From Allobosea sp. OK403 (GTDB lineage Bacteria; Pseudomonadota; Alphaproteobacteria; Rhizobiales; Beijerinckiaceae), in the NCBI RefSeq assembly GCF_900113835.1, contig NZ_FOQV01000001.1:1178001-1242000 (forward strand): DNA of 64,000 bases, read 5' to 3'. A model generated the notes under the pieces. It did no database searches. It was not told where the DNA came from and saw only the letters and a list, made by a program, of their open reading frames with translations. Made by a program: the position numbers and the translations under genes. Below, one piece after another: positions 44,121-64,000 of this stretch (the first letter of the stretch is position 1; every line of letters starts with the position of its first letter).

Positions 44121-44130
44121 GCCCTTCTCC

Positions 44131-44889: not shown

Positions 44890-44916
44890 GAGGTGTCCTT
44901 TCGGTTATGCGGAGGG

Positions 44917-45993: not shown

Positions 45994-45995
45994 GG

Positions 45996-46889: not shown

Positions 46890-47779
46890 ACCTGCGCCCT
46901 CCGGGCCCGGCGGTTCTGCCAGACCAGCCAGGGCGCGACCACGGCCGCGACCGTGATCAGCATCGAGGTCGCGGCCGCTGTGGCGAGGCCGAGATTGCCG
47001 CGCTCGAACAGGTGGTCCATGACGAATTTGGCCGGCACCTCCGAGGCGACGCCGGGGCCGCCATTGGTCATTGCAACGGAGAGGTCGTAGAGGCGCACCA
47101 CACTGGTCGCGAGCAGGACGGCGGCGGTGGCGAAGCTCGCGCCGAGCATCGGGATCACGATCGAAAGATAGACCCGCCAGGGCGGCAGGCCGTCGATCCT
47201 GGCCGCCTTCCAGATATCCTCGTCAATGCCACGCAGGCCCGCCAGCATGATCGCCATGACGAGGCCCGCCGCATGCCAGACGGCGGCAAAGACCAGCGTG
47301 TAGATCACCATGTCCTGGCGCACGATCCAGTCGAAGTGGAAGGACGGGAAGCCTAAATCCCGGACCATCTTCTCGATGCCGAAGCTCGGGTTCAGCAGCC
47401 ACTGCCAGACCAGGCCAGTGACGATGAACGACATCGAATAGGGGTAGAGGAAGATCGAGCGCAGCGTGTTCTCGGCCCGCACGCGCTGGTCGATCGCCAC
47501 CGCCAGCAGGAAGCCCAGTGCCAGGCTCGCGATCAGGAACAGCGAGCCGAAAACGGCAAGATTGGCGACCGAGACCTGCCAGCGCTCATTGCCCATCAGG
47601 GAGGCGTATTGGCGCAGGCCCACAAAGGTGGAATTCGGCAGCATCCGCGACGATGTCAGCGAGATCCACACGGTCCAGGCCGTACAACCGAGATAGACCA
47701 CGACGAGGACCAGCAACGCCGGCGACAAGGCGAGGCCCGCTGCGAGCCGGGATGCGGTTCGGTGTCTCACGAGGGGCAT
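46886..47779 (-). CDS. Sugar ABC transporter permease (MalF type)
   Basis: 297 residues. LALSPALLVLVVVYLGCTAW, NTLRSIFLYPYSMSFIVTGL and the EAA loop WKAARIDGLPPWRVYLSIVI identify a MalF/UgpA-type permease. Separated from the binding-protein gene by a strong hairpin. Confidence 0.92.
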   Translation of the reverse strand: MPLVRHRTASRLAAGLALSPALLVLVVVYLGCTAWTVWISLTSSRMLPNSTFVGLRQYASLMGNERWQVSVANLAVFGSLFLIASLALGFLLAVAIDQRVRAENTLRSIFLYPYSMSFIVTGLVWQWLLNPSFGIEKMVRDLGFPSFHFDWIVRQDMVIYTLVFAAVWHAAGLVMAIMLAGLRGIDEDIWKAARIDGLPPWRVYLSIVIPMLGASFATAAVLLATSVVRLYDLSVAMTNGGPGVASEVPAKFVMDHLFERGNLGLATAAATSMLITVAAVVAPWLVWQNRRARRAQV

Positions 47780-47842
47780 GGCAAAGCTCCGCCGCCGAGC
47801 GACCTAAGGGGGTGAGTGATGCTCCGGGGAGCCCCTGGAGCC

Positions 47843-47866
47843 GCCCTCGCCTGTCAAGGCGAGGGC
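47843..47866. terminator. Strong stem-loop between binding-protein and permease genes
   Basis: GCCCTCGCCT-GTCA-AGGCGAGGGC: ten paired bases and a four-base loop in the 115-base gap. No T-run. In ABC operons such hairpins often protect the binding-protein message so that it is made in excess over the membrane parts. Confidence 0.6.
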
Positions 47867-47894
47867 GATGAGGCACGAAGATCCCGACTGACCG

Positions 47895-49139: not shown

Positions 49140-49204
49140 GGTCCTGTCCTCCCTGTATTCGCATCGTCGTTGAACCCGTGTCCGGGCGCGCTGCGATTTC
49201 GATT

Positions 49205-49218
49205 TGTAATCGATTACA
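49205..49218. promoter_or_regulatory. LacI-family operator 1 (perfect palindrome)
   Basis: TGTAATCGATTACA, a perfect 14-base dyad centred on CG, as LacI/GalR-family sites are. It lies 66 bases before the binding-protein start, in the divergent region shared with the LacI gene. Confidence 0.8.
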
Positions 49219-49313
49219 TTTTTTTCCATACTGCCACAGGAATGACGCCTGTCAAGCCGTTCCGAGACAGCGTCTTGGCAGGCCGCCGGGATAACGATAG
49301 GGCAGATCGAGGC

Positions 49314-49362
49314 TAGAGCATTGCGCGAAAAACTGGGCACCGGTTTTTCGCGCAATGCTCTA
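49314..49362. repeat. Perfect intergenic palindrome (GGGCACCGG core), copy 2
   Basis: Arms TAGAGCATTGCGCGAAAAA (49314-49332) and TTTTTCGCGCAATGCTCTA (49344-49362), 19 of 19 paired, with an 11-base loop CTGGGCACCGG. Same family as the element at 50455. It lies between the two operators, so it may affect looping or block readthrough. Confidence 0.85.
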
Positions 49363-49368
49363 AACTTA

Positions 49369-49382
49369 TAGAATCGATTACG
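49369..49382. promoter_or_regulatory. LacI-family operator 2 (imperfect)
   Basis: TAGAATCGATTACG matches operator 1 at 11 of 14 positions, with the central AATCGATTAC intact. It lies 53 bases before the LacI start and about 164 bases from operator 1, fitting autoregulation and possible loop formation. Confidence 0.65.
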
Positions 49383-49434
49383 TTTTTTGCATTCGGACGG
49401 CTCCGTCCGAAGGCGACGTGATCTAGGGACGATC

Positions 49435-50451
49435 ATGGACGAACGGCTGCGCAAACCGAGGATCGACGACGTCGCCAGGCGGGCGGGCGTCTCGACAGCC
49501 ACTGTGAGCCGCGCTCTCGCCACCCCCGACCAGGTGAAGCCGAAAACGCGCGCGGCCGTGGAAAAAGCGGTGCTGGAGACGGGTTATGTGCTGAATGTCG
49601 CGGCCCGCAATCTGCGCACCAACCGCACCCATGCCGTGCTCGCCGTGGTGCCCGACGTCGCCAACATCTTCTTCTCGCAGGTGCTGCGCGGCATCTCCGA
49701 CACCTTGCACCAGCACGGCTACCGGCTGGTGATCGCCGATACCGGCAACGATCCCGAGCGCGAGCGCGACCATGCCGAATTCGCCCAGGCCGGCTGGGTC
49801 GACGGCCTGCTGCTGCTGAACGGGCGTCTTCTGCCCACCCCGGCAGGAGGGCGGCGCCGCCTGGCCGTGCCGACGGTCAGCCTGTGCGAACGCATCCCGG
49901 GCTCCGACATCCCCTATGTCGAAACCGCGAACCGCGAGGCGGCGCGAGCGATGACGGAGCGCCTGCTGCAATTGGGACATCGCCGCATCGGCTATGTCTC
50001 CGGCCCGCCCAACAACATCCTGGAGCATGACCGTTTCGCCGGTTATCGGGATGCGCTGGCGGCGCGGGGCCTCGCACCTGACCCTGCGCTGGTGCGCCCG
50101 GGCGACTATACGCTGGCCACGGGCGAGGCGGCAGCGAGCGCCTATCTGGCTCTTGCCGAGCTTCCGGACGCGGTCTTCGCCAGCAACGACGCCATGGCGA
50201 TGGGCCTGATCCGGGGCTTTACCGCCGCCGGCCTCTCGGTGCCGGAGGCGATCTCGATCGCCGGCTTCGACGACATCGAGTTCGCCGGCGCCTACAACCC
50301 CGCCCTCACCACCATGCATCAGGCCCGCAGCGAGATCGGCGCCCGCGCGACCACGATGCTGATCGATCTGATCGAAGGCCGCCAACCGGCCAGCCGCGAG
50401 GTCCATCTGCCGGCCGAGATCGTCATGAGGGACAGCACGCGCGAGCGCTGA
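49435..50451 (+). CDS. LacI-family transcriptional regulator
   Basis: 338 residues with the LacI DNA-binding head (RIDDVARRAGVSTATVSRAL, then the hinge YVLNVAARNLRTNRT) and a periplasmic-binding-like sugar domain (GYVSGPPNNILEHDRFAGYR, FASNDAMAMGLIRGF, ISIAGFDDIEFA). Start at 49435. Divergent from the sugar operon, whose operators it should bind in the absence of the sugar. Confidence 0.94.
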   Translation: MDERLRKPRIDDVARRAGVSTATVSRALATPDQVKPKTRAAVEKAVLETGYVLNVAARNLRTNRTHAVLAVVPDVANIFFSQVLRGISDTLHQHGYRLVIADTGNDPERERDHAEFAQAGWVDGLLLLNGRLLPTPAGGRRRLAVPTVSLCERIPGSDIPYVETANREAARAMTERLLQLGHRRIGYVSGPPNNILEHDRFAGYRDALAARGLAPDPALVRPGDYTLATGEAAASAYLALAELPDAVFASNDAMAMGLIRGFTAAGLSVPEAISIAGFDDIEFAGAYNPALTTMHQARSEIGARATTMLIDLIEGRQPASREVHLPAEIVMRDSTRER

Positions 50452-50582: not shown

Positions 50583-50683
50583 GCGTTTTCGAGCGAAGTG
50601 GCCACCGGTTCGCGTGAAGAAAACGCTATAAAACAAAGATTTAGAGCAATTTCCGATCCAATTGGATTGGAAATTGCTCTAAA
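50583..50683. repeat. Intergenic palindromic element (GAGCGAAGTGG core), copy 4
   Basis: Two hairpins: GCGTTTTC (50583-50590) with GAAAACGC (50619-50626), and TTTAGAGCAATTTCC (from 50640) with GGAAATTGCTCTAAA (to about 50683). Same layout and core as the 23488 element. It ends at the 3' end of the GntR gene. Confidence 0.8.
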
Positions 50684-51425
50684 GGGCAAGATCCAGGACC
50701 CGCCCCTCGAACAGGCGGTCATAGGAGCCCTTGATGTGCATGCGCATCGCATCCCGCGCCACTTCGGCGTCACGGGCGCGGATCGCCGCGAAGATGTGCG
50801 CATGCTCGTCCAGCACGCCGGCGAGGCCGCCCGCGGGTCCGAGCAGCGAAAGCCCGTGCAGCTTCATGCCGACATTGATGTGGTCCTTCAGCGCCTGCAT
50901 CGACGACAGGAAGAAGTAGTTGTTCGCCGCCTCCGCGATGGCGATGTGGAAGGCATAATCGGCGTCCTCGCGATGGCGATGCGCGTGGGTGGTGTCGCGC
51001 AGCAGCTCGAAGGCGCTGCCGATGGCCTCCAGCGCCGCCGCATTATGGCGCTTGGCGGCATAGAAGGCATTGGCCGGCTCCACCTCGAGCCGGAACTCGT
51101 AGCAGCGCTGCACATCCGCGATCGTGCCGACCGGCGCGAAGGCCAGCGCCCTGCCTTGGTCCGCCTCGGTCCCGCGCACGAAGGTGCCCGCGCCCTGGCG
51201 GGAAAAGATCAGCCCGTCCTCGCGCAGACGGCGCAGCGCCTCGCGCACCACCGGCCGCGATACGCCGTAGATCGCCGACAGGTCGTGCTCGCCGGGCAGC
51301 CGCGAATGGCTGGCGTACTCGCCCGAGGCGATCCGGGCGCGCAATTGATGATGCACGCGCTGCACCAATGGCGAGGGCGGGGTGACGTCCGCGGAACGCG
51401 CCGGCTTGCCTGAGGTCTGATCCAT
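50679..51425 (-). CDS. GntR-family transcriptional regulator (FadR/FCD subfamily)
   Basis: 248 residues. Winged helix (VHHQLRARIASGEY, LPGEHDLSAIYGVSRPVVRE, RQGAGTFVRG) and an all-helical FCD ligand domain with the metal-binding histidines (YAFHIAIAEAANNYFF, LDEHAHIFAAIRARD). FCD regulators often sense organic acids or sugar acids, matching the divergent four-carbon acid cluster. Confidence 0.92.
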   Translation of the reverse strand: MDQTSGKPARSADVTPPSPLVQRVHHQLRARIASGEYASHSRLPGEHDLSAIYGVSRPVVREALRRLREDGLIFSRQGAGTFVRGTEADQGRALAFAPVGTIADVQRCYEFRLEVEPANAFYAAKRHNAAALEAIGSAFELLRDTTHAHRHREDADYAFHIAIAEAANNYFFLSSMQALKDHINVGMKLHGLSLLGPAGGLAGVLDEHAHIFAAIRARDAEVARDAMRMHIKGSYDRLFEGRVLDLAL

Positions 51426-51517: not shown

Positions 51518-51656
51518 ACATATCCAGCCGGATGATGTTCAACCCCCTCAAGGCCCGAAGAGGCCGGCTCATGGAGGCATCCCAAGGACCGTGCGCTACA
51601 GCGCAACCGCCCGCTTCCGTGATCCGCTGCCCCGATGGGTGTCTTTCAGCAGGTGG

Positions 51657-52427
51657 ATGATGGCTGACGTCAGGACGAACGGTTTCAAGCGCGATCTCGG
51701 CAAGCGGCAGATGCTCGGCATCTTCTCGACGCTGGCCAGCCCCACCCTCACCGAGCTCTTCGCACAGGTCGGCTTCGACTGGATCCTGATCGACACCGAG
51801 CACAGCCCCAATGAGCCCGGCGATGTCGTCGCCCAGTTGCAGGCGATGTCGGCATTGCCCGCTGAAGCGATCATCCGGCCGGCCTGGAACGACATGGTAC
51901 TGGTCAAGCGCGTGCTCGATCTCGGCGCCCAGACCCTGCTCTTCCCTTATGTCCAGAATGCCGAGGAAGCGGCTCGCGCCGTCAGCTACACCCGTTATCC
52001 GCCCCATGGCGTGCGCGGCGTCTCCGGCAGCTCGCGCGCGGCGGCCTATGGCCTGATCCCGGATTATTTCGCCAAGGTGCAGCAGGAGATCTGCGTCATC
52101 GTGCAGATCGAGACGATCGAGGCGCTGGCCGATATCGAGAAGATCGCGGCGGTCGACGGCGTCGATGCCGTCTTCATCGGCCCCGCCGACCTCGCCGCCT
52201 CGATGGGCCATCTCGGCAACACGCAACATCCCGAGGTCCAGGCCGCGATCGATGACGGCTTCCGCCGCCTGAAGGCCATCGGCAAGCCGGCCGGCTACCT
52301 CACCAACAACGAGGCCGAGGCGGTGCGGCGCGTCGCGCAAGGCATCGATTTCGTCGGCGTCGCCAACGACACGACGATCGTGGTGCGCGGCTCCAAGGCG
52401 CTGCTCTCGGCGGTAAAGGCGAGCTGA
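51657..52427 (+). CDS. HpcH/HpaI-family aldolase
   Basis: 256-residue class II, divalent-metal aldolase that splits 2-keto-3-deoxy (or related) acids to pyruvate plus an aldehyde. Family landmarks: LGIFSTLASPTLTELFAQVG, DWILIDTEHSPNEP, metal-site VQIETIEALADIEKIA and VFIGPADLAASMGHLG, RGVSGSSRAAAYG. Starts at either ATG, 51657 or 51660. First gene of a sugar-acid cluster; one base before the kinase gene. Confidence 0.88.
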   Translation: MMADVRTNGFKRDLGKRQMLGIFSTLASPTLTELFAQVGFDWILIDTEHSPNEPGDVVAQLQAMSALPAEAIIRPAWNDMVLVKRVLDLGAQTLLFPYVQNAEEAARAVSYTRYPPHGVRGVSGSSRAAAYGLIPDYFAKVQQEICVIVQIETIEALADIEKIAAVDGVDAVFIGPADLAASMGHLGNTQHPEVQAAIDDGFRRLKAIGKPAGYLTNNEAEAVRRVAQGIDFVGVANDTTIVVRGSKALLSAVKAS

Positions 52428-52428
52428 G

Positions 52429-53535
52429 ATGGCGCCGCTCCGGCTCCTGGCTGATGACCTGACCGGCGCGCTCGACAGCGCGGCCGCGTTCGGTTCGCCC
52501 GCCGAGCCGGTCGCGGTGTGCTGGCGCGGCGGAGCCCCCGCGGAGGGCGCCATCGCCATGGACAGCCGCAGCCGCGAGGTTTCGACCGCCGAGGCGCGCA
52601 GTGCAGTCGCCGCAATCGCTCCCACCTTGTGGGCGCGCGGCTCGGGCCTCGCCTATAAGAAGATCGACAGCCTGTTGCGCGGACAGGAGGTGGCCGAGAT
52701 CGCCACGATCCTCGACCTGCTGCGCCCGGCCCATTGCATCATCGCCCCGGCCTTCCCGGCGCAGCGCCGGATCACCCGCGACGGCAGGCAATATGCCTGG
52801 GCGGATGGCGACTGGCGCGCAGCGCCCGCCGATCTCGCTACCGGGCTTGCAGTGGCGGGCCATCGCGTCACGCAGGCCGTTCCGGGAGATGCCCTGCCCC
52901 CGGGCATCAGCCTCTGGGATGTCGAGACCGACGCCGATCTCGACGCCGTCATCGCAGCCGCCTCCGGGCGCGATGATGTGCTCTGGGTCGGAAGCGCGGG
53001 GCTGGCGGCGGCGCTCGCACGGGCAGCCGGCATCATCCGCTGGATCGATGACCGCCCGCTCGCAGGCAAGGTTCTCGGGCTCGTCGGCTCGGACCATGCG
53101 GCGATCGGCCAGCAGCTCGACCGGCTCGGCTCGCTTCACATCGTTCTAGGTCCTGCCTGCAATGCCGAAATCGCCCGGCGCCTCACCCATGATGGCATCG
53201 TCTTCGCGAGCGTCGCGTTGCCGGACGGCACCTCGCGCCGCGACGCCGCCGCGCTGATCGACGCGCGACTGGCCAGCCTCCTGCAGGAGCTCGACCGCCC
53301 GGACACGCTCTTCGCCGCCGGCGGCGAAACCTTGCGCGGCATCTGCGAGAGCCTCGGCACTGACCGCCTCGACGTCACCGGCGAGATCATGCCGGGCGTG
53401 CCGCGCTCGATCATGCGTGGCGGTCGCTGGGACGGCGTCGCCGTGATCTCGAAATCGGGCGCCTTCGGCGCGCCGGACCTTCTTCAACAGCTCGCCGCGA
53501 CCCGGATCGCGGCCTTTGCCGGAGCGGCAGCATGA
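52429..53535 (+). CDS. Four-carbon acid sugar kinase (DUF1537, OtnK/DtnK type)
   Basis: 368 residues. N-terminal LLADDLTGALDSAAAF and KKIDSLLRGQEVAEI are the substrate-domain signatures; C-terminal GEIMPGVPRSIMRGG and AVISKSGAFGAPDLL are the nucleotide-domain ones. Family members phosphorylate D-threonate, L-threonate or D-erythronate. It is shorter than the usual 410-470 residues, and the family's KIDSTLRG appears as KIDSLLRG. It overlaps the pdxA2 start, its known pathway partner. Confidence 0.88.
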   Translation: MAPLRLLADDLTGALDSAAAFGSPAEPVAVCWRGGAPAEGAIAMDSRSREVSTAEARSAVAAIAPTLWARGSGLAYKKIDSLLRGQEVAEIATILDLLRPAHCIIAPAFPAQRRITRDGRQYAWADGDWRAAPADLATGLAVAGHRVTQAVPGDALPPGISLWDVETDADLDAVIAAASGRDDVLWVGSAGLAAALARAAGIIRWIDDRPLAGKVLGLVGSDHAAIGQQLDRLGSLHIVLGPACNAEIARRLTHDGIVFASVALPDGTSRRDAAALIDARLASLLQELDRPDTLFAAGGETLRGICESLGTDRLDVTGEIMPGVPRSIMRGGRWDGVAVISKSGAFGAPDLLQQLAATRIAAFAGAAA

Positions 53536-54572
53536 AACCTCACCTTGCCATCACCATGGGCGATCCCGCCGGTGTCGGCCCCGAGATCATCGTCAAGGCC
53601 TGCCTCGCCCTGAAGGACAGGCTGGCGAGCGGCGATCTGCGCCTGCTCGTCATCGGCAGCAACCCCGCGCTGGCCGAGGCGCGCCGCCTGCTCGGCGCCG
53701 ACATCGCCATTCCCGAGGTCTCCGAGAGCGAGGCCTGGCCGCATCTCGCCTGTCTGCAGGCGGGGCCGGAGGGCGAACCGATCCGCCCGGGCGTGCTTTC
53801 CGCCGATGGCGGCCGCTTCGCCTATCTCGCGGTCGAGAAGGGCGTGAAGCTCGCTCAGGCCGGCCGCATCGGCGGCATCGTCACGGCGCCGCTGAACAAG
53901 GAAGCGCTGAACAAGGCCGGCTACAAATTCGCCGGCCATACCGACATGCTGGCGACGCTGACGGGCGCCAAGGGCTCGGTGATGATGCTCGCCCATGGCG
54001 GCATGCGGGTAAGCCATGTCACCACCCATGTCGCTCTCAAGGACGTGCCCGCCAAGCTGACGCCGGAGCGGTTGCGCTATGTGCTCGACCGCACCGACGA
54101 GGCGCTCTCCGCGCTCGATCTCGGCCGGCGCAAGATCGCGGTCGCCGCGCTCAACCCCCATGCCGGCGAAGGCGGATTGTTCGGCCGCGAGGATGACGAG
54201 GTCTCCGCGCCGACCATCGCCAAGGCGGTCACTGATGGTCTCGACGTCGTCGGGCCGGTGCCGGGCGACACGGTCTTCGTCAAGCTGCGCGCCGGTCAGT
54301 ACGACGCCGTCGTCGCGATGTATCACGACCAGGGCCACATCCCGGTGAAGCTCCTGGGCTTCAATGTGAACCCGGAAACCGGCACCTGGGATTCGCTCTC
54401 GGGCGTCAATATCACGCTCGGCCTGCCGATCGTGCGGACCTCCGTCGACCATGGCACCGCCTTCGACATCGCCGGCAAGGGCATCGCCAACGAGCTCAGC
54501 CTGATCGAGGCGATCGAATACGCCGAAAAACTGGCTGCAGCGCGCGGCCTCAGTGCCGACCGCGCGGCCTGA
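53532..54572 (+). CDS. pdxA2: PdxA2-type 4-phospho-sugar-acid dehydrogenase
   Basis: 346 residues of the PdxA fold. AITMGDPAGVGPEIIVKA, the metal and substrate residues in FAGHTDMLATLTG, ALNPHAGEGGLFGRED, YHDQGHIPVKLLGF and TSVDHGTAFDIAGKG. In this setting (DUF1537 kinase next door) it should oxidise and decarboxylate 4-phospho-threonate or -erythronate to dihydroxyacetone phosphate rather than make vitamin B6. Confidence 0.88.
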   Translation: MKPHLAITMGDPAGVGPEIIVKACLALKDRLASGDLRLLVIGSNPALAEARRLLGADIAIPEVSESEAWPHLACLQAGPEGEPIRPGVLSADGGRFAYLAVEKGVKLAQAGRIGGIVTAPLNKEALNKAGYKFAGHTDMLATLTGAKGSVMMLAHGGMRVSHVTTHVALKDVPAKLTPERLRYVLDRTDEALSALDLGRRKIAVAALNPHAGEGGLFGREDDEVSAPTIAKAVTDGLDVVGPVPGDTVFVKLRAGQYDAVVAMYHDQGHIPVKLLGFNVNPETGTWDSLSGVNITLGLPIVRTSVDHGTAFDIAGKGIANELSLIEAIEYAEKLAAARGLSADRAA

Positions 54573-54623: not shown

Positions 54624-55784
54624 ATGAATATCCACGCGCCCAGCCAGATCGCCGTCGCGAGCCTCGCCACGCCGATCGCGATCACCCGGCCGAAGATCAT
54701 CGAGTTCGGCTCCGGCACGGCGCCACTCGCCGGGCGTTGGGCTGCGGCCCAGGGGCTCTCGCGCATCCTCGTCGTGGCGGATGCCTTCAATGCCGCCCGC
54801 GTCGATCTGCTCGGCCTGACCGGCGAGGTCACGATCTTCGGCGAGGTCCGCCCCGAGCCGGACGTTCCCAATCTCGAGGCAGCGCTTGCCGTCGCCGAGC
54901 GGGTGAAGCCCGACCTCGTCATCGGCTTCGGCGGCGGCAGCGCCATGGACCTCGCCAAGCTCGTCGCTGTCCTGCCGGGTTCCGGCCAGTCTCTCCAGGA
55001 TGTCGTCGGCCCCGAGAAGGTCGCCGGCAAGCGCTCGGCCCTGATGCAGGTGCCGACCACCTCGGGCACCGGCAGCGAGGCCGGAACACGCGCCCTGGTC
55101 ACCGACCCCAAGACGCAGAACAAGCTCGCCGTGCAGAGCCTGCACATGCTCGCCGACATCGCGGTGATCGACCCCGACCTGACGCTGACGCTGCCGCCGG
55201 CCGTGACCGCAGCGACCGGCGTCGATGCCATGGCCCATTGCGTCGAGGCCTACACCAGCCTGAAGGCACATCCGCTGATCGACATGTATGCGCTCGAGGG
55301 CGTGCGCCTGGTCGGCCGCTTCCTCGGTCGCGCCATCGCCGACGGTTCCGACATCGAGGCCCGCGCCGGCCTGTCGCTCGCCTCGCTTTATGGCGGCTAC
55401 TGCCTTGGTCCGGTCAACACGGCCGCCGGCCACGCCGTGGCCTATCCGCTCGGCACGCGCCACCATATCGCCCATGGCGCCGCCAACGCGCTGATCTTCC
55501 CGCATACGCTCGCCTTCAATGCGCCGGCCGTGCCGGAGAAGACCGCCGCGATCCTCGCCGCACTCGGCCTGAAGGCGTCGGCCCGGCAGGAGGAGGTCTT
55601 CGAGGGCGCCCATCGCTACTGCGCCGAGCTCGGCTGCGAGATGAAGCTGTCGCGTCTCTCAGTGCCCCGCGACGATCTCCCGGCGATGGCGAGCGAGGCT
55701 CACGCCATACGCCGCCTGCTCGACAACAACCCGCGCGACATCAGCCGCGACGAGATCCTGGCCCTTTACGAAGCCGCCTATTGA
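54624..55784 (+). CDS. Iron-type (group III) alcohol dehydrogenase
   Basis: 386 residues. NAD site VIGFGGGSAMDLAKLVA, VPTTSGTGSEAGTRA, and metal ligands in GVDAMAHCVEAYTS, NTAAGHAVAYPLG and HHIAHGAANAL. Relatives reduce lactaldehyde, hydroxybutyrate or maleylacetate. Its role here may be reduction or oxidation of the aldehyde released by the HpaI aldolase. AAGGGAGG lies before the ATG; the preceding spacer is a degenerate A/G-rich repeat. Confidence 0.88.
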   Translation: MNIHAPSQIAVASLATPIAITRPKIIEFGSGTAPLAGRWAAAQGLSRILVVADAFNAARVDLLGLTGEVTIFGEVRPEPDVPNLEAALAVAERVKPDLVIGFGGGSAMDLAKLVAVLPGSGQSLQDVVGPEKVAGKRSALMQVPTTSGTGSEAGTRALVTDPKTQNKLAVQSLHMLADIAVIDPDLTLTLPPAVTAATGVDAMAHCVEAYTSLKAHPLIDMYALEGVRLVGRFLGRAIADGSDIEARAGLSLASLYGGYCLGPVNTAAGHAVAYPLGTRHHIAHGAANALIFPHTLAFNAPAVPEKTAAILAALGLKASARQEEVFEGAHRYCAELGCEMKLSRLSVPRDDLPAMASEAHAIRRLLDNNPRDISRDEILALYEAAY

Positions 55785-55818: not shown

Positions 55819-57252
55819 ATGACAGTCCATGCCACGCCCATGATCGTCGAGCGCCTCGCGGCGATCGTCGGGGCGCGGCATGTCATCGGGCCCGATGGCG
55901 ACCAGGAGCCTTATCTCGTCGACTGGCGTGGGCGCTATCGCGGCACGGCCGAGGCGATCGTGAAGCCGGCGAGCACCGCCGAGGTCGCCGCCGTGGTCAA
56001 GCTCTGCGCTGAGCTCGGCTTCGCCATCGTCCCGCAGGGCGGCAATACCGGCATGTGCGGCGCGGCGACCCCGCTCAGCGGGCGCCCGAATGTCGTGCTG
56101 CGGCTCGACCGCATGAACAAGGTCCGCGCCATCAGCCGGCTCGGCGATTCCATCGCGGTCGATGCCGGCTGCATCCTCGCCGATGTCCAGAAGGCGGCCG
56201 AGGCGGCCGACCGCCTGTTCCCCTTGAGCCTCGGCGCCGAGGGCTCCTGCCAGATCGGCGGCAACCTCTCGACCAATGCCGGCGGCACGGCCGTGCTGCG
56301 CTACGGCACGACGCGCGAGCTCACCCTCGGGCTCGAAGCCGTGCTGCCGGATGGCTCGGTGCTCGATTTGATGACGAGCCTGCGCAAGGATTCCACCGGC
56401 GTCGATCTCAAGCAGCTCTTCATCGGCGCCGAGGGCACGCTCGGCATCATCACCGGCGCGGTGCTGAAACTGTTCCCGCGCCCGCGCCAGCGCAGCGTCG
56501 CGCTGGCCAAGGCCGAGGATATCGAGGCGGTGCTCGATCTCCTGGCGCTGGCCCGCACCGAACTCGGCGACCGGCTCGGCGCCTTCGAGGTGATGTCGCG
56601 CGGGCAGGTCGAGGTCATCGCCGAGAATGTGCCCCATGTCGCGATCCCCTTTGCGGCGGACGCGCCCTGGTTCGTGCTGATCGAGCTCATCGACACATTG
56701 CGGGGCATCGACCTCTCCGCCGAGATGGAAGCAATGCTGGCCTCGGCCTTCGAGCGCGGGCTGATCGGCGACGCCCTCGTCGCTTCAAGCGAGGCCCAGG
56801 CGGCTGCGCTCTGGGCCATCCGCCACAGCGTCTCGGAAGGCTCCAAGCGCGCCGGCTACGTTGTCTCGCATGACAGCGCCGTTCCGCTCGAACATCAGGC
56901 CGAGTTCGTGCGCCGGGTCGAGGCGCGTATCGCGGCGCTCCGGCCCGAGGCGCGCATCGTCATGCATGGCCATCTCGGCGACGGCAACATCCATGTGCTC
57001 GCCATCCTGCCCGGCATCGCCGCCGACCAGCGCGGGACGCTTGCCCCGATCGTCAGCGCGATCAACCGCGCCGTCGACGAGGAGACGGCGGCGCTCGGCG
57101 GCAGCATCAGCGCCGAGCACGGCATCGGCATCGCCAATAAGGAGCGCCTCAACCACGTGACGGCGCCGCGCGAAATGGCCCTGCTGCGGCAGGTCAAGGG
57201 GCTGCTCGATCCGCAGGGGCTGATGAATCCGGGCAAGGTCCTCAGCGACTGA
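55819..57252 (+). CDS. FAD-linked 2-hydroxyacid dehydrogenase (GlcD/D-lactate dehydrogenase type)
   Basis: 477 residues. FAD-binding PQGGNTGMCGAATP and GSCQIGGNLSTNAGGTAVLR; C-terminal HGHLGDGNIHVLAI and GSISAEHGIGIANKERL, with the metal-binding histidines of D-2-hydroxyacid oxidisers. Subunits GlcE and GlcF are absent, so it acts alone, as D-lactate or D-2-hydroxyglutarate dehydrogenases do. Probably oxidises a hydroxyacid of the pathway. Confidence 0.88.
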   Translation: MTVHATPMIVERLAAIVGARHVIGPDGDQEPYLVDWRGRYRGTAEAIVKPASTAEVAAVVKLCAELGFAIVPQGGNTGMCGAATPLSGRPNVVLRLDRMNKVRAISRLGDSIAVDAGCILADVQKAAEAADRLFPLSLGAEGSCQIGGNLSTNAGGTAVLRYGTTRELTLGLEAVLPDGSVLDLMTSLRKDSTGVDLKQLFIGAEGTLGIITGAVLKLFPRPRQRSVALAKAEDIEAVLDLLALARTELGDRLGAFEVMSRGQVEVIAENVPHVAIPFAADAPWFVLIELIDTLRGIDLSAEMEAMLASAFERGLIGDALVASSEAQAAALWAIRHSVSEGSKRAGYVVSHDSAVPLEHQAEFVRRVEARIAALRPEARIVMHGHLGDGNIHVLAILPGIAADQRGTLAPIVSAINRAVDEETAALGGSISAEHGIGIANKERLNHVTAPREMALLRQVKGLLDPQGLMNPGKVLSD

Positions 57253-57324
57253 CAAGATCTTGAGCGCCTGTCCTGGGTACATGAACGACGCGATACGAAA
57301 AAAATAATGCAAGGGAGAACAGAG

Positions 57325-58299
57325 ATGAACCGCCGCGATGTCCTGGCTGCACTGAGCCTCCTGTTCGGCCCGGCTCCCGCCTTCGCGCAAGGCGTCGGCT
57401 ACCCGTCGAAGCCGGTCAGCATGATCGTGCCCTTCTCGGCCGGCGGCACCGCCGACATCTTCGCCCGCATGGTCGGCGAGCATCTGCAGAAGAGCTGGGG
57501 CCAGCCCTTCGTGACCGAGAATGTCGGCGGCGCCGGCTCGATCGTCGGGATCACGCGGATTGCGCGCGGGACGCCGGACGGCAGCATCCTCGGCCTCGCC
57601 TCGACCTCGGGCCTCTCGATCAACCCGACGCTCTATGGGGCGAAGCTGTCCTATCGCCCGGCGCAGGACCTCCTGCCCATCGCCCAGATCAGCATGGTTC
57701 CGAACGTGCTCGTGGTGAACCCCGACAAGATCAAGGCCCGCACCGTCCCGGAGCTGATCGCCCATCTCAAGGCCAATCCGGACAAGGTCTCCTTCGGCTC
57801 GGCCGGTGTCGGCACCTCACAGCATCTGGCGGCCGAATTGTTCAAGCAGATGACCGGCACGCAGATGACGCATGTGCCCTATCGCGGCTCGAGCCAGATG
57901 GTCACAGACCTCATCAGCGGCAATATCGACCTCGCCTTCGACAATGTGCCGCTGCTGCTGCCGCAGGCGGCGGGCGGAAAGCTCGCGCTGATCGCGACCG
58001 CGACCGCCAAGCGCGCGGCCTTCGATCCCAATCTACCGGCGCTGTCGGAATACCTGCCTGGCTTCGAGGCCGTCGCCTGGCACGGCTTCGTCGCTCCCGC
58101 GGGGACGCCCAAGCCTGTGATCGACAAGCTCTCGGCCGAGATCCGCAGCTTCATGCAGAAGCCCGAGACGGCCAAGAAGATGGACGAGGTCGGTGCCATC
58201 GCGGTTGCGCTCGGCCCCGACGAATTCGCCGCCTACATCGCCTCCGAGACCACCCGCTGGAAGGCGGTCATCGAGGCCGCCGCCATCAAGATCGACTGA
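57325..58299 (+). CDS. Tripartite tricarboxylate transporter binding protein (TctC/Bug family)
   Basis: 324 residues; signal peptide cut near AFAQGV. Bug-family wording: YPSKPVSMIVPFSAGGTADI, HVPYRGSSQMVTDLISGNID, PALSEYLPGFEAVAWHGFVA. The membrane parts TctA and TctB are not in the window, so it is an orphan or serves a transporter elsewhere. AAGGGAGAACAGAG precedes the ATG. Confidence 0.92.
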   Translation: MNRRDVLAALSLLFGPAPAFAQGVGYPSKPVSMIVPFSAGGTADIFARMVGEHLQKSWGQPFVTENVGGAGSIVGITRIARGTPDGSILGLASTSGLSINPTLYGAKLSYRPAQDLLPIAQISMVPNVLVVNPDKIKARTVPELIAHLKANPDKVSFGSAGVGTSQHLAAELFKQMTGTQMTHVPYRGSSQMVTDLISGNIDLAFDNVPLLLPQAAGGKLALIATATAKRAAFDPNLPALSEYLPGFEAVAWHGFVAPAGTPKPVIDKLSAEIRSFMQKPETAKKMDEVGAIAVALGPDEFAAYIASETTRWKAVIEAAAIKID

Positions 58300-58368: not shown

Positions 58369-59580
58369 ATGGGAGCCCATTCGACCGATATCGCACCCGC
58401 CGGCCTCTCCGAGCGCAGCGGCATCCTGCATCCGCGCGAGGGCGATGCACGGCGCATCGAGGCCTATCTGCCCTCCCCTTGCGTCCAGAACCACGCAGCC
58501 AACATCGCCGTGCTCGGCAATGGCGATCTCGCCATCGTCTGGTTCGGCGGCACGCAGGAAGGCATCCCCGACATCTCGGCCTATTTCTCGCGATTGCCCA
58601 AGGGTGGCGATCGCTGGTCGGCCCCGGTCAAGCTCTCCGACGATCCGGCCCGCTCCGAGCAGAACCCGGTGCTGTTCACCGCACCCGGTGGCGAGCTCTG
58701 GCTGATCTGGACCGCGCAGATCTCCGGCAACCAGGACACAGCGCTGGTGCGCAAGCGCATCTCGCTTGACCATGGTCTGACATGGGGACCGATCGAGACC
58801 CTGTTCGAGGCGCCCAAGGGCCATGGCCTGTTCGTGCGCCAGCCTCCCGTCGTGCTCGACAATGGCGATTGGGTAATCCCGGTGTTCCATTGCGTCAGCG
58901 TACCCGGCGCCAAATGGGTCGGCGATCACGACATCAGCGCCGTGCGTGTCTCCTCCGACGCCGGCAAGAGCTGGGTGGAGCATGCCGTGCCCGGCTCGAC
59001 CGGCTGCGTGCACATGAACGTGCTGAAGACGAAGGACGGGCTCGTCGCGTTCTATCGCAGCCGCTGGGCCGATTTCATCTATGCCAGCCGCTCGACCGAC
59101 GGCCGCAACTGGACGTCACCCGAGCCCACCGCGCTGCCCAACAACAACTCCTCGATCCAGGCGACAGTGCTCGCCGACGGCCGCATCGCGCTCGTCTTCA
59201 ACCACTCCAGCGCGGCCGACGCGACCGACCGGCGCACCGGCCTTTATGACGACATCGAGGACGAGGAGGCCGGCGCGCCGCAAGCCGAGGCCGCCTCTGC
59301 CCCCGCTGCGTCGCATCGCACCGCCTTCTGGGGCGCACCGCGCGCACCGATGACGCTGGCGCTCTCCTCCGATGGCGGCCGGAGCTGGCCGATGATGCGC
59401 GACCTCGAGACCGGCGACGGCTTCTGCATGACCAACAACTCCAAGGACCAGCTCAATCGCGAGTTTTCCTATCCCTCGATCACGCAGACGCCGGACGGGG
59501 CGCTGCACATCGCCTTCACCTATTTCCGCCGCGCCATCAAATACGCCCGCGTCGCGCCCGATTGGGCGGCCCAGACCTGA
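58369..59580 (+). CDS. BNR-repeat / sialidase-fold protein, cytoplasmic
   Basis: 403 residues with no signal peptide. Repeated Asp-box type motifs (S-x-D-x-G-x-x-W): SLDHGLTWG, SSDAGKSWVE, STDGRNWTS and SSDGGRSWP, as in six-bladed sialidase-like propellers. An insertion near 285-310 is rich in Glu, Ala and Pro (DIEDEEAGAPQAEAASAPAA). Annotated relatives are called exo-alpha-sialidase, but the gene sits among four-carbon acid enzymes with no sialic acid genes, so a different hydrolase or lyase role is likely. AAGGAGG precedes the start. Confidence 0.8.
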   Translation: MGAHSTDIAPAGLSERSGILHPREGDARRIEAYLPSPCVQNHAANIAVLGNGDLAIVWFGGTQEGIPDISAYFSRLPKGGDRWSAPVKLSDDPARSEQNPVLFTAPGGELWLIWTAQISGNQDTALVRKRISLDHGLTWGPIETLFEAPKGHGLFVRQPPVVLDNGDWVIPVFHCVSVPGAKWVGDHDISAVRVSSDAGKSWVEHAVPGSTGCVHMNVLKTKDGLVAFYRSRWADFIYASRSTDGRNWTSPEPTALPNNNSSIQATVLADGRIALVFNHSSAADATDRRTGLYDDIEDEEAGAPQAEAASAPAASHRTAFWGAPRAPMTLALSSDGGRSWPMMRDLETGDGFCMTNNSKDQLNREFSYPSITQTPDGALHIAFTYFRRAIKYARVAPDWAAQT

Positions 59581-59638: not shown

Positions 59639-60448
59639 ATGCCTGCACTCGCTCAAGTCCATCCGCTCAACGCCGCGTCCTCGCCTCAGCGCGACCTCAT
59701 CCGCATTCGCGGCCTCGACAAGACCTATGCCGGCGGCAGCGTGCATGCGCTGTCGGCGATCGATCTCGACATCAAGGATGGCGAGTTCGTCTGCGTTGTC
59801 GGCCCTTCGGGCTGCGGCAAGTCGACCTTGCTGCGCATCCTCGCCGGGCTCGACGATTACGACACCGGTACGGCAGCGCTCGACGGCAAGACGATCTCCG
59901 GCCCCTCGCGCGATGTCGGCGTCGTCTTCCAGGCAGCAAATCTCCTGCCCTGGCTGACCGTGCGCGAGAACATCGCCTTGCCGCTGCGCGTCGGCGGCAA
60001 GCAAGTCGGGCAGGCCGAGGATATCGACCGGTTGCTCGATGTCGCCGGCCTCAAGGATTTCGGCGAGCGCTTCCCCTATGAGCTCTCCGGCGGCATGCAG
60101 CAGCGCGCCGGCATCTGCCGCGCCCTGGTGCGCTCACCCCGCGTCCTGCTGATGGACGAGCCTTTCGGCGCGCTCGACGCATTGACCCGCGAGCGCATGA
60201 ACCTCGAGCTGCAGCGCATCTGGCAGGCCAGCCGCAAGACCGTGCTCCTGATCACCCATTCGATCTCGGAGGCGATCTTCCTCGCCGACCGCGTCGTGGT
60301 GATGTCGGCCCGGCCGGGCCGCGTCATCTGCGAGCTTGAGGTGCCGATCCCGCGCCCGCGCAGCAACGACACCATCATCAGCCACCCCGCCTATCCGGCG
60401 CTGGCTAAGGAAATCCGCGGATTGCTCAACGCGCAGGGAGACGAATGA
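59639..60448 (+). CDS. ABC transporter ATPase (SsuB/TauB type)
   Basis: 269 residues. Walker A GPSGCGKSTLLRILAGL, FQAANLLPWLTVRENI, signature LSGGMQQRAGICRALV, Walker B VLLMDEPFGALDALTRERM. This is the NitT/TauT branch (nitrate, taurine, sulfonates, pyrimidine precursors). Its stop overlaps the permease start. Confidence 0.92.
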   Translation: MPALAQVHPLNAASSPQRDLIRIRGLDKTYAGGSVHALSAIDLDIKDGEFVCVVGPSGCGKSTLLRILAGLDDYDTGTAALDGKTISGPSRDVGVVFQAANLLPWLTVRENIALPLRVGGKQVGQAEDIDRLLDVAGLKDFGERFPYELSGGMQQRAGICRALVRSPRVLLMDEPFGALDALTRERMNLELQRIWQASRKTVLLITHSISEAIFLADRVVVMSARPGRVICELEVPIPRPRSNDTIISHPAYPALAKEIRGLLNAQGDE

Positions 60449-61362: not shown

Positions 61363-62430
61363 ATGGTCACACGCAGAGAATGGCTTCTCGCCAGTGGCGC
61401 CGTCGCGGCGGCGCTGGCCCTGCCGGCCCGCTCGGCGTTCGCCCAGCCGGCCCGCACCGTGAAGGTGGCGATCGGTCAGAAGACGATCGCGCCGAACCTG
61501 GTCAACCTGCTCATCGGCGAAGGGCTCGGCTACAACGCGGCCGAGGGCTTCAAGGCGCAGTTCATGACGGTGGGCGGCGTCTCGAACGCTCAGGTCGCCA
61601 TCGATCGCGGCGATTCCGACATCTCGACCGGTGTGCCCTCCTTTGCCCTGCCGATCCTGGCCAAGGGCGAGTGGGGCAAGGCGATCCACTTCTACCAGTA
61701 TACCTATCCCTACAAATGGGACGTGGCGGTGAAGCCGGAATCGACGCTGACGAGCTATGAGGGGCTCAAGGGCAAGAACATCGGCGTGCCGGATTTTGCG
61801 GAGACAGCATTCCCAGTCACCAAGAACGTTCTGCGTAGCCTGGGCCTTGACCCGGACAGGGACGTCAAATGGACGGCGGTGGGCACTGGCGTCGCTGCCG
61901 GTGTCGCACTGCAGCGCGGCGCCGTCGACGCCCTCGCCTATTACGACACCGGCTTTGGACAGATCGAAGGCGCCGGTATCCCGTTCAAGATGCTGCCGCT
62001 TCCGAAAAACGTGCCCATGGTCGGCGGGCAGTTCCTGATGGCGCTGCGCGAACGCATCGCCAGCGATCGCGCATTGCTGATCGGCTATGGCAGGTCGGTC
62101 GCGAAGGCGTCCGTCTTCCTCGCGGCAAGTCCGGGCGGCGGGGCGCGCGCCTTCCTGAAAATGTATCCCGAAGCGGCGCCGCGCGGCTCCAACGAGGAGG
62201 ATGCGATCAAGTCGGTGCTCGTCGCGATCTCCCGGCGCATCAAACTCTACGAGCCGCCCTATCAGGGCGCCAAGATCGGCAGCATCAATCCGGAGGAGTT
62301 TCGGATCGAGGCGCAGATGAACGACATGAAGATCGGCTCCTTCGACGGCTTCTACACCAACGAGCTGATCGATGAGATCAACCGCTTCGATCGTGAGGAG
62401 ATCAAGCGGCAGGCGCAGTCCTACGCATGA
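61363..62430 (+). CDS. ABC transporter binding protein (NMT1/SsuA-like), copy 1
   Basis: 355 residues. Signal resembles a Tat leader (TRREWLLASGAVAAALAL, cut near SAFAQPA). NLLIGEGLGYNAAEGF, GDSDISTGVPSFALPIL and QYTYPYKWDVAVKP are shared closely with the second copy at 63331. The family binds sulfonates, taurine, thiamine precursors or aromatic acids. GGGAGGAACATC lies before the ATG. Its end overlaps the amidohydrolase gene. Confidence 0.9.
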   Translation: MVTRREWLLASGAVAAALALPARSAFAQPARTVKVAIGQKTIAPNLVNLLIGEGLGYNAAEGFKAQFMTVGGVSNAQVAIDRGDSDISTGVPSFALPILAKGEWGKAIHFYQYTYPYKWDVAVKPESTLTSYEGLKGKNIGVPDFAETAFPVTKNVLRSLGLDPDRDVKWTAVGTGVAAGVALQRGAVDALAYYDTGFGQIEGAGIPFKMLPLPKNVPMVGGQFLMALRERIASDRALLIGYGRSVAKASVFLAASPGGGARAFLKMYPEAAPRGSNEEDAIKSVLVAISRRIKLYEPPYQGAKIGSINPEEFRIEAQMNDMKIGSFDGFYTNELIDEINRFDREEIKRQAQSYA

Positions 62431-63287
62431 GCATCGGGGCCACGGAGATGGACGCTTCGACGGCGCTACGCATCGATGCGCCTGCCGCTGTCGGGATATG
62501 CGACACGCATTTCCATGTCTTCGGCCCCTATGACCGCTTCCCGCTGCCGCATCATCCCTCCTATGCGCCGCAGGAGGCGACGGCTGCGGCCTATCGCCAG
62601 GTTGCCGAACGGCTCGGCATCGACCGGATGGTGGTCGTGCAGGGTGGCTGCTACGGCACCGACAACGCGGCGATGCTCGATGCGGTGCAGGTGCTGGGTC
62701 CCGGTCGGACCTGCGGAATCGCCATCATCGAGGGGACCACGACCGCGGCAGATCTCCGCCGGCTTGACGAAGGCGGCGTACGCGGCATCCGGCTCAACGC
62801 CATATCGGACACGCGCATCGACGCCGACGCTATCCGGACCCAGGCGAACATGATCGCGGAGTTGGGTTGGCACATCCAGTTCCACGCGCGCGCCGATCAG
62901 ATCGTGCAGCATGCGGCGCTGCTTCGCGATCTGCCTGTCGACGTGGTGATCGATCATTGCGGCCGGATCGATCCGCGCGGAGGCCAGGATCAGGAGGCGA
63001 TGCGGGCGATGCTGGACCTGCTCGCGACCGGGCGATGCTGGATCAAGCTGATCAGCTACCGATCGCTTCCAGCTGGCGGCAAGGGCGACGAGATGGCGCC
63101 GTTCCTGCGGCGCTTCGCAGCCGCCGCGCCGGAGCATTGCCTCTGGGGCACCGACTGGCCACATCCGCTGATGGAGGTCGTGCCTGACACGCAAAGACTA
63201 TTCGAAGAGCTCTGTAGCGTTTTTGACGAGCCTTTTCGCAAGAAGATTTTCAGCAAAAACGCTGAACGACTCTATGGCTTCAAGTAA
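62427..63287 (+). CDS. Amidohydrolase-family lactonase (2-pyrone-4,6-dicarboxylate lactonase-like)
   Basis: 286-residue TIM barrel. ICDTHFHVFGPYDRFPL at the start with the H-x-H metal motif, WHIQFHARADQIVQHAALL, VVIDHCGRIDPRGG and the C-terminal active-site LWGTDWPHPLMEV. Closest in feel to LigI-type PDC lactonases and related sugar-lactonases. Cytoplasmic. Translationally coupled to the binding protein before it, so it may open the lactone form of the imported acid. Confidence 0.88.
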   Translation: MSIGATEMDASTALRIDAPAAVGICDTHFHVFGPYDRFPLPHHPSYAPQEATAAAYRQVAERLGIDRMVVVQGGCYGTDNAAMLDAVQVLGPGRTCGIAIIEGTTTAADLRRLDEGGVRGIRLNAISDTRIDADAIRTQANMIAELGWHIQFHARADQIVQHAALLRDLPVDVVIDHCGRIDPRGGQDQEAMRAMLDLLATGRCWIKLISYRSLPAGGKGDEMAPFLRRFAAAAPEHCLWGTDWPHPLMEVVPDTQRLFEELCSVFDEPFRKKIFSKNAERLYGFK

Positions 63288-63330: not shown

Positions 63331-64000
63331 ATGACGACACGCAGAGAATGGCTTCTGGCAAGCGGCGCCTTCGCCGCCGCACTGACAATGGGACCACGCT
63401 CGTCCTTCGCTCAGGCGACGCGGACCGTAAAGGTCGGCGTCGGGCTGAAATCGCTCAACTCCAGCGTTATCAACCTGCTGATCGGCGAGGCACTCGGCTA
63501 CAATGCCGAGGAAGGCTTCAAGGTCCAGGGGCTGGCGCTCGGCGGCAACGCCAACGTCCAGGTCGCGACCGATAAGGGCGATGTCGATGTCGGCATCGGC
63601 GTGCCCTCTTACGCCCTGCCGATCCTGGCCCGCAACGAGTGGGGCAGCGCGCAATGGTTCTACCAGTACACCTACCCCTATAAATGGGACATTGCGGTCA
63701 AGCCCGGCTCGACCGCCAAGGCCTATACCGACCTCAAGGGTAAGAATATCGGCGTCTCCGATTTCGGCGGCACCGAATATCCGGTCACTCGCAACGTGCT
63801 GAAATCGCTCGGTGTCGATCCCGACAAGGATGTGAAATGGACGGCCGTCGGCGCCGGCGTACCGGCTGGCGTCGCCCTGCAGCGCGGCGCCATCGACGCC
63901 CTCGCCTATTATGACACCGGCTTCGGTATCATCGACGGCGCCGGCATCCCGCTGGAGCTGCTGGCGCGCCCCAGCAACCTGCCGATGATCGGCGGCCAAT
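63331..64000 (+). CDS. ABC transporter binding protein (NMT1/SsuA-like), copy 2, cut by window edge
   Basis: First 223 codons. Tat-like leader TRREWLLASGAFAAALTM and then NLLIGEALGYNAEEGFKVQG, GVGVPSYALPIL-like wording, QYTYPYKWDIAVKPGS, WTAVGAGVPAGVALQRGAID. Clearly a paralogue of the copy at 61363, with the same leader and length of landmarks. The rest lies outside the window. Confidence 0.9.
   Translation, partial: MTTRREWLLASGAFAAALTMGPRSSFAQATRTVKVGVGLKSLNSSVINLLIGEALGYNAEEGFKVQGLALGGNANVQVATDKGDVDVGIGVPSYALPILARNEWGSAQWFYQYTYPYKWDIAVKPGSTAKAYTDLKGKNIGVSDFGGTEYPVTRNVLKSLGVDPDKDVKWTAVGAGVPAGVALQRGAIDALAYYDTGFGIIDGAGIPLELLARPSNLPMIGGQ

Follow-up and report, generated by a model that had tools for sequence, protein, structure and literature searches.

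Sialidases of glycoside hydrolase family 33 (GH33) act through a nucleophilic tyrosine with a glutamate partner, an acid/base aspartate and a triad of arginines. A table in PMC9120202 lists hydrolase activity on 3-deoxy-D-manno-oct-2-ulosonic acid (Kdo) for this family. For four-carbon acids, a D-threonate pathway formed by DtnK and PdxA2 is known from the DUF1537 work of Zhang et al. 2016, cited in PMC9997740 and described in PMC10971088. The present analysis concerns a gene of Allobosea sp. OK403 at positions 58369–59580 of a 64,000-nucleotide stretch of contig NZ_FOQV01000001.1 (hereafter the window). Its product, termed here the BNR protein, is cytosolic and belongs to the Asp-box propeller superfamily with the sialidase fold, but has departed from the sialidases, and the gene is linked to those of a pyruvate aldolase, a reductase, a four-carbon acid kinase and PdxA. 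The cassette is tentatively interpreted as one for the breakdown of a seven-carbon ulosaric acid.

The sialidase-fold protein and its active site

The open reading frame runs on the forward strand from an ATG at 58369 to a stop at 59580, encodes 403 amino acids and has a good ribosome-binding site, AGAAGGAGG, just 5' of it; a promoter and terminator scan gave no signal above shuffled sequence. The protein matches the Pfam family BNR_2 (PF13088) far above chance, scoring 217 bits where the cut-off is 31.4 (E 4e-64, profile positions 1–277 covered), and its gene is the sole PF13088 match of its genome at E ≤ 0.001. Asp boxes are found at residues 132, 195, 242 and 333. The closest homologue among the matches listed in the genome scan, from Bosea psychrotolerans, is 94% identical.

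An AlphaFold2 model built with 34 sequences (predicted local distance difference test, pLDDT, 85.3; predicted TM-score 0.87) was disordered at residues 290–317, and nearly all of the 50 matches listed when it was compared with PDB by Foldseek were GH33-type sialidases (best E 1.1e-17). Structural re-alignment gave Z scores of 36.6 for the M. viridifaciens sialidase 1w8o (root-mean-square deviation 2.6 over 313 aligned residues), 36.4 for 1eur of the same species, 36.9 for the designed metalloprotein 4j9t (2.3 over 310) and 34.3 for the Aspergillus fumigatus Kdnase 4m4v. With this fold match and its four Asp boxes, the protein has the marks of the six-bladed Asp-box propeller of GH33, recognised as a whole and not by counting single blades. 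At the sequence level, phmmer with the window protein alone found at most a chance match in PDB (E 0.09), a profile of 24 homologues found sialidases from E 8.6e-11 over part of the sialidase length, and a profile-profile comparison of the family with GH33 gave 98.4% probability and E 9e-15, from residue 64 on.

For the comparison of residues, a core set of 121 proteins, consisting of the window protein and those of 120 of 121 loci (L036 was dropped, its chosen stretch having an in-frame stop), was aligned with seven FRIP-motif GH33-type proteins from actinobacterial genomes, one of which, searched against PDB, matched solved sialidases from E 2.7e-28. The first arginine of the triad, that of the FRIP/YRIP motif, is present in 7/7 GH33 proteins and is replaced by H42 in 121/121 core proteins; the glutamate partner of the tyrosine, likewise present in 7/7, is replaced by H215 in 121/121 and by glutamine in all 12 distant BNR_2 relatives aligned. 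The second and third arginines (R230 and R325) and the nucleophilic tyrosine (Y368) are retained in every core and GH33 protein. Two alignments disagree on the column of the acid/base aspartate, which is either E64 or D68; both are invariant in the core, and the distant relatives keep E64 in 12/12 and D68 in 10/12 cases, together with H42, R230, R325 and Y368. Of 23 positions examined, all polar, 20 are invariant in all 121 core proteins, including H42, E64, D68, E97, R157, D188, H215, R230, R232, N258–N260, R325, Y368 and R387. The geometry of the pocket is read here from the alignment rather than from model coordinates. A maximum-likelihood tree of 43 proteins separates the GH33 set on a branch with 100/100 support and groups the 24 core rows in a clade supported at 97/97.

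Judged by these residues, the BNR protein is not a standard sialidase, and the public name exo-alpha-sialidase, given in 25 of the 30 plasmid rows listed, is probably wrong for this gene. A true sialidase was rejected on the missing FRIP arginine and the absence of NanE (no PF04131 match in the whole genome, which is 99.99% complete). A structural or non-enzymatic propeller was rejected on the invariance of the polar positions.

The N-terminus of the window protein is not hydrophobic (maximum 12-residue hydropathy 0.37 in the first 45 residues), and no signal peptide was found by this check. In that same stretch a value of 1.8 was reached by one of the 121 core proteins (L023, with a probably mis-set start), and over the first 80 residues it was reached by six of the seven GH33 controls. 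A preliminary description of the window had reported four Asp-box motifs, a sialidase-like propeller and the absence of an export signal, all of which hold. It had also singled out an acidic Ala/Pro-rich insert; the insert is real (residues 290–317, pLDDT < 50), but it is a linker that varies from 21 to 50 residues across the 121 core proteins, and so is not a distinguishing trait of the window protein. The full arginine triad of sialidases, named there, along with activity on sialosides, as the finding that would speak against a new activity, is not present, two of the three arginines being kept (R230 and R325) and the first being His42.

A modular gene cassette in the window and its relatives

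At least 588 related stretches were confirmed in a scan of one genome per species, and the gene is thus no lone oddity. Neighbouring genes were counted in the best 80 of the 588 confirmed relatives, that is, in close relatives, by tblastn with reference proteins within 10 kb of the BNR gene; 14 of these 80 loci are shorter than 20 kb, and the kinase count rose from 37 to 53 after two further kinase references were added. A modular cassette extends from Rhizobium to Pectobacterium and Bacillus and comprises an importer, the BNR protein, a pyruvate aldolase, an aldehyde reductase, a four-carbon acid kinase and PdxA. The aldolase is of the dihydrodipicolinate synthase (DHDPS) type in 51 loci and of the HpaI type in seven, and the reductase is an iron-containing alcohol dehydrogenase (Fe-ADH) in 54 and an aldo/keto reductase (AKR) in seven; these exchanges define a pyruvate-aldolase slot and a carbonyl-reductase slot. 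PdxA and the kinase were each found in 53 loci, a short-chain dehydrogenase/reductase (SDR) in 73, an importer of at least one type in 79, sodium:solute symporters in 51, YhcH in 11 (10 of them Enterobacterales) and FAH in four.

The full set of aldolase, reductase, PdxA and kinase lies within 10 kb in 49 of the 80 loci; none of the four was found in 19 loci, of which 13 are from Bradyrhizobium. Whole genomes were inspected for 17 strains, comprising 15 from these 19 loci (those other than L055, L047, L073 and L090) and two, L094 and L106, with the four genes nearby. All 12 Bradyrhizobium genomes examined carry Fe-ADH and kinase genes about 1 kb apart elsewhere in the genome, one kinase being in two pieces and one Fe-ADH having an internal stop. 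The kinase was not found in two of the 17 genomes, those of Telmatospirillum siberiense and Bacillus swezeyi; the Fe-ADH of the latter is only 37% identical. Among 297 genomes of the order, from 123 genera, the BNR gene is present in 32 genomes (18 genera) and Fe-ADH, at E ≤ 1e-70, in 36 (17 genera); they co-occur in 28 (Fisher p 6.4e-28, with genomes treated as independent and relatedness uncorrected). In the class of the Streptomyces locus L093, 5 of 148 sampled genomes have a match to the BNR family at E ≤ 1e-40. Many of the related stretches come from genera that are known from soil and plants.

On annotated plasmids of Azospirillum (two), Rhizobium, Sinorhizobium, Agrobacterium, Caballeronia and Methylobacterium, genes for aldolase, Fe-ADH and PdxA are accompanied by a kinase or a kinase-like stretch. 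The BNR gene of Pantoea has no annotated kinase in its vicinity; the related P. allii locus has one. The linked PdxA of Pantoea passes the D-threonate 4-phosphate dehydrogenase model NF002891 (650.7 against 583), and those of the three other relatives tested do not; the cassette kinases of four relatives score 115–323 against the DtnK model NF047819, all below its cut-off of 450. In Nonomuraea (L105:280-2679) a single protein of 798 aa combines the four-carbon acid kinase with PdxA, and the similar length of a PdxA-annotated protein of Caballeronia (L119:5049-7355) suggests that it is also a kinase-PdxA fusion.

The genes of the cassette in the window are as follows.

50679–51425, reverse strand: FadR/GntR-family regulator, divergent (PF00392 and PF07729)
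51591–52427, forward strand: HpcH/HpaI-type pyruvate aldolase, start codon unsure (PF03328, 150 bits)
52429–53535, forward strand: four-carbon acid sugar kinase (DUF1537; Pfam SBD_N and NBD_C)
53532–54572, forward strand: PdxA-family dehydrogenase, putative PdxA2 (PF04166, 337 bits)
54624–55784, forward strand: Fe-ADH, putative aldehyde reductase (PF00465/PF25137)
55819–57252, forward strand: FAD-linked oxidase, GlcD-like, accessory (found in 1/80 relatives' loci)
57307–58299, forward strand: TctC-type solute-binding protein (PF03401)
58369–59580, forward strand: BNR_2 sialidase-fold protein, cytosolic, 403 aa (open reading frame, PF13088, fold, residues)
59236–59319, forward strand: disordered acidic Ala/Pro-rich linker of the BNR protein, residues 290–317 (pLDDT < 50)
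59639–60448, forward strand: ATP-binding cassette (ABC) transporter ATPase, SsuB/TauB-like (labelled by inspection); close homologues (78–97%) lie near BNR genes in L033–L036, L056, L057 and L118
60445–61311, forward strand: ABC transporter permease, SsuC-like (labelled by inspection)
61363–62430, forward strand: NMT1-like solute-binding protein (PF09084)
62427–63287, forward strand: Amidohydrolase_2 protein, accessory (PF04909; found in 2/80 loci)
63331–64000, forward strand: second solute-binding protein, cut by the window end; the conserved SDR is next, outside the window

The window aldolase fills the slot held by DHDPS-type aldolases in most relatives' loci, and the best of the five NCBIfam models that it hits is HpaI 4-hydroxy-2-oxoheptanedioate aldolase (TIGR02311; 297 bits, below the cut-off of 369). 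The kinase has D-threonate kinase DtnK (NF047819) as its best model (103 bits, below 450), PdxA scores 278 against NF002891 (below 583), and the best model for the amidohydrolase is 4-sulfomuconolactone hydrolase (148 bits, below 500). The preliminary description had placed a cytosolic propeller within a four-carbon acid gene series, in a sugar-acid cluster with no sialic acid gene, and these genes agree with that account, the last point being confirmed for NanE genome-wide. The gene-neighbourhood survey proposed there ties the BNR gene genetically to sugar-acid genes, through the 49 loci with all four enzymes. A sialic acid cluster was rejected, as NanE is missing and four-carbon acid genes are found instead.

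The BNR gene set continues past the window end. Just beyond it (L121:1899-2606, genome C11) lies the 226–235 aa SDR that is the most constant BNR neighbour; among NCBIfam models it scores highest on the unnamed PRK07577, at a value below cut-off. Right after the gene set (L121:2776-6537) are a second GntR-like regulator and a TctC-like protein, both labelled by inspection, and an altronate/galactarate dehydratase-type gene (GD_AH), perhaps another sugar-acid unit. Upstream of the cassette, at 40615–50451 of the window, is a separate sugar/polyol cluster with two Gfo/Idh/MocA dehydrogenases, two xylose-isomerase-like TIM barrels, a MalK-type ABC transporter and a LacI regulator.

Proposed pathway and its alternatives

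The cassette has a constant theme, because its aldolase position is taken by either of two families and its reductase position by different carbonyl reductases: a keto-deoxy acid is split to pyruvate and an aldehyde, the aldehyde is reduced, and the four-carbon acid is phosphorylated and then oxidised by PdxA. A four-carbon acid plus pyruvate would therefore derive from a seven-carbon keto-deoxy acid, and the presence of a reductase suggests that the four-carbon fragment already has a carboxylate, i.e. that the parent compound is a seven-carbon diacid. Model rankings hint in the same direction: the window aldolase scores best on a heptanedioate model, and the DHDPS of Pantoea ranks DapA, N-acetylneuraminate lyase and then, third, a heptenedioate-aldolase model, all scores in both proteins being below cut-off. 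To our knowledge, the seven-carbon diacid of the required kind is 3-deoxy-D-lyxo-hept-2-ulosaric acid (Dha) of the pectin rhamnogalacturonan II (RG-II). The favoured reading, a tentative one that falls somewhat short of an even chance, is that the cassette serves the catabolism of a seven-carbon 3-deoxy-2-ulosaric acid, most likely this Dha, and that the BNR protein is a cytosolic ketosidase.

According to this scheme, the importer would bring in Dha or a small Dha conjugate, and the BNR protein would hydrolyse the ketosidic bond to free Dha. In this reaction Y368 would be the nucleophile and E64 (or D68) the acid/base, H215 would stand where GH33 enzymes have glutamate, and the carboxylate would be held by R230 and R325, perhaps also by R387. 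The HpaI- or DHDPS-type aldolase would split open-chain Dha to pyruvate and D-threuronate, Fe-ADH (or AKR) would reduce the latter to D-threonate, the DUF1537 kinase would form D-threonate 4-phosphate, and PdxA2 would convert this to dihydroxyacetone phosphate and CO2. The D-threonate stereochemistry was derived by hand from the D-lyxo name of Dha, through retro-aldol cleavage and then reduction. A ketosidase is favoured on two grounds: the protein retains the nucleophile and two of the triad arginines, and relatives occur as fusions with glycosidases or close to them. The preliminary description had suggested a new hydrolase, lyase or lactonase: the evidence speaks for a hydrolase of the ketosidase type whose substrate is a ulosonic acid other than sialic acid, because relatives adjoin aldolases of the DHDPS/NanA superfamily and sometimes YhcH, and no positive evidence was obtained for a lyase or lactonase.

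Dha and Kdo are known in plants, to date, only from RG-II and are structurally related to sialic acid (PMC12168206), they help to join side chains C and D of RG-II to its backbone (PMC12282258), and sialate lyase is served by a YhcH-family protein that opens the ring of sialic acid (PMC8141875). The occurrence of YhcH in 11/80 loci would fit a ring-closing keto acid. No Dha catabolic pathway was found among the listed hits of searches in an open-access library. Kdo was rejected as the substrate of the core clade, since the aldolase would yield D-arabinose from it and core cassettes have four-carbon acid genes.

The contexts of the distant BNR_2 proteins support the ulosonic-acid or RG-II reading of the core cassette by analogy. 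In Bacteroides finegoldii an exported protein fuses GH78 to BNR, and its gene lies by GH140. In Rufibacter one BNR gene adjoins GH78, near a propeller protein like BT_1020 (GH143), and a second is near a pectinesterase and a pectate-lyase match. The Croceibacterium gene is near GH127, GH28, a DUF1537 kinase and a RuBisCO-like protein, that of Monoglobus pectinilyticus is beside an arabinofuranosidase and a GH106 match, and apiosidase-type genes are beside or near those of Streptomyces (L116) and Nonomuraea (L177). DHDPS and BNR genes occur with TctCBA in Martelella and with an isomerase-like protein in Nonomuraea (L178). On a Klebsiella conjugative plasmid (NZ_CP056276.1, L189:2723-10624) a compact cassette, flanked on either side by insertion sequences, contains an FGGY kinase, an isomerase-like protein annotated as 'signal transduction protein', DHDPS, a cytosolic BNR protein, a major facilitator superfamily transporter and a LacI regulator. 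The Klebsiella isomerase-like protein has no Pfam match itself and is 45% identical to the Nonomuraea one, which matches Fucose_iso_C, the C-domain of L-fucose isomerase (33.2 bits, cut-off 29.3). This is the set expected for conversion of Kdo to pyruvate and D-arabinose and then ribulose phosphate, making it a candidate Kdo catabolic operon. Where the core has R157, R232 and H215, four proteins of one sister branch (L178, L188–L190) have K, T and Q; the extra charge of the core residues may fit the second carboxylate of Dha as compared with Kdo. Proteins of 534–552 aa with no or weak Pfam matches flank distant BNR genes at L178:5746-7386, L188:3764-5368 and L188:8529-10187, those of L188 having none.

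Several observations weigh against the Dha ketosidase scheme, and the main doubt concerns the nature of the imported compound: the symporters of 51/80 loci are of a monosaccharide type and suggest entry of a monosaccharide, and uptake of free Dha would leave no need for a ketosidase. The protein also lacks the glutamate by which GH33 enzymes activate the nucleophile. The scores of the window kinase, PdxA and aldolase are all below the cut-offs of the substrate-specific equivalog models, and among the genes of the window cassette no pectin glycosidase was found. The scheme has no role for the SDR, which is the most constant neighbour (73/80). Eight of the 36 genomes with Fe-ADH lack the BNR gene, and 4 of the 32 with the BNR gene lack Fe-ADH at the threshold used; in three of these four, another SDR adjoins PdxA (L179–L181) and may fill the Fe-ADH slot. 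Two Streptomyces core loci (L088 and L093) have no aldolase of either kind within 10 kb, and two actinobacterial stretches (L173 and L174) no kinase or PdxA in 17 kb. Among the sister branches, R232 is also found in L116, L117 and L192, and R157 in L116, and these residues are thus not confined to the core. The DHDPS proteins of the Klebsiella and Nonomuraea cassettes are not alike (blastp 24% over 49 aa, E 0.14), and the Klebsiella one is 21–25% identical to core DHDPS proteins. The Pandoraea context (L188) does not fit, all BNR neighbours being unnamed proteins, and in Paraburkholderia (L195) a sugar ABC transporter is present with no RG-II-type gene annotated in 17 kb.

Entry of a monosaccharide, as the symporters suggest, would sit better with a rather doubtful alternative, in which the cassette and substrate class are the same and the BNR protein acts on the free monosaccharide, giving the aldolase its open chain by ring opening, anomer change or opening of a lactone or inner anhydro form. 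YhcH (11/80) and FAH (4/80) occur in some taxa only, as if a ring- or lactone-opening step were variably assisted, the window has an amidohydrolase with lactonase-like homology downstream of the BNR gene, and NanM, a propeller, mutarotates sialic acid. Such a role is opposed by the ketosidase-type Y368 and two triad arginines kept in 121/121 proteins, by ten enteric loci that have both YhcH and BNR, and by the glycosidase fusions and neighbours of BNR relatives, which look like glycan hydrolases. Dha itself would be wrong, and the aldolase, kinase and PdxA2 right, if another acid yielded the four-carbon unit, such as a 3-deoxy-heptulosonate from which a tetrose is formed and then oxidised to a tetronate. 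The substrate is identified from family resemblance and sister-branch contexts, and the SDR could be the oxidising enzyme; this is nevertheless unlikely, as enzymes such as Fe-ADH and AKR usually act as aldehyde reductases, a role for which a semialdehyde acid is a better match than a tetrose, and pectin or RG-II-type genes recur near sister-branch BNR genes.

It is less likely again that the BNR protein is a dehydratase or eliminase, with H215 and Y368 removing the alpha proton of an arginine-held seven-carbon sugar acid to give a 2-keto-3-deoxy acid, the SDR making that acid from an aldose. Histidine and tyrosine with arginines are typical of polysaccharide-lyase chemistry, steps in the order SDR-(lactonase)-dehydratase-aldolase would resemble those of oxidative sugar pathways, and the SDR is the commonest neighbour (73/80); enolase-superfamily dehydratase-like matches are absent in 66/80 loci and UxaA-type ones in 79/80, IlvD/Edd-type enzymes not having been searched for. 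Against this, we know of no sialidase-fold member that is a sugar-acid dehydratase, the 12 distant relatives keep the tyrosine and both arginines with glutamine for H215, enolase-superfamily matches do lie near BNR in 14/80 loci, and no SDR was found within 9 kb of BNR in the Rhizobium, Sinorhizobium and Agrobacterium loci. An ordinary cytosolic GH33 sialidase, as publicly annotated, would agree with the fold (Z 36.6 to 1w8o), with Y368, R230 and R325, and with the name in 25 of the 30 plasmid rows listed. It is very improbable in view of the histidines that replace the FRIP arginine and the glutamate partner in 121/121 proteins, the lack of NanE in the genome and the 100/100 branch between the core clade and the seven GH33 proteins.

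Comparison with known systems

If the Dha ketosidase reading is true, the cassette offers a concrete gene set for bacterial use of Dha and Kdo, suggests where D-threonate comes from, shows that a sialidase active site can be re-tuned for a diacid, and provides enzymes for RG-II analysis, for which Dha standards are described as lacking (PMC12168206). A broader proposal is somewhat more doubtful than the reading itself: that the Dha pathway supplies the DUF1537/PdxA2 pathway with a natural source of D-threonate, that the BNR protein is the first of a new family of ketosidases, cytosolic and acting on ulosaric acids, within the sialidase fold (His42 and His215 for arginine and glutamate, R387 as a relocated third arginine), and that a sister family does the same for Kdo.

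The BNR protein shares with GH33 sialidases (1w8o/1eur, and the Kdnases 4m4v/2xcy) the propeller fold, the Asp boxes, the nucleophilic tyrosine and two of the three triad arginines. It differs from them in the replacement of the first arginine by His42 and of the glutamate by His215, in invariant R157, R232 and R387, in having no export signal and no NanE in its genome, and in forming a separate clade. The proposed ketosidase action on a 3-deoxy-2-ulosonic acid, on the same fold, would by description resemble the Kdo hydrolase activity listed for GH33.

Like the D-threonate pathway, the window has a DUF1537 kinase followed by PdxA, and the PdxA of the enteric cassette passes the D-threonate 4-phosphate dehydrogenase model. 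Unlike that pathway, the window adds a linked pyruvate aldolase, a reductase and the BNR protein, which would give D-threonate an upstream source, and its proteins lie below the D-threonate equivalog cut-offs. The Klebsiella and Nonomuraea cassettes resemble the core in placing a cytosolic BNR_2 protein next to a DHDPS aldolase, but an isomerase-like protein, with an FGGY kinase in Klebsiella, replaces the four-carbon acid module, and their BNR proteins have K157, T232 and Q215.

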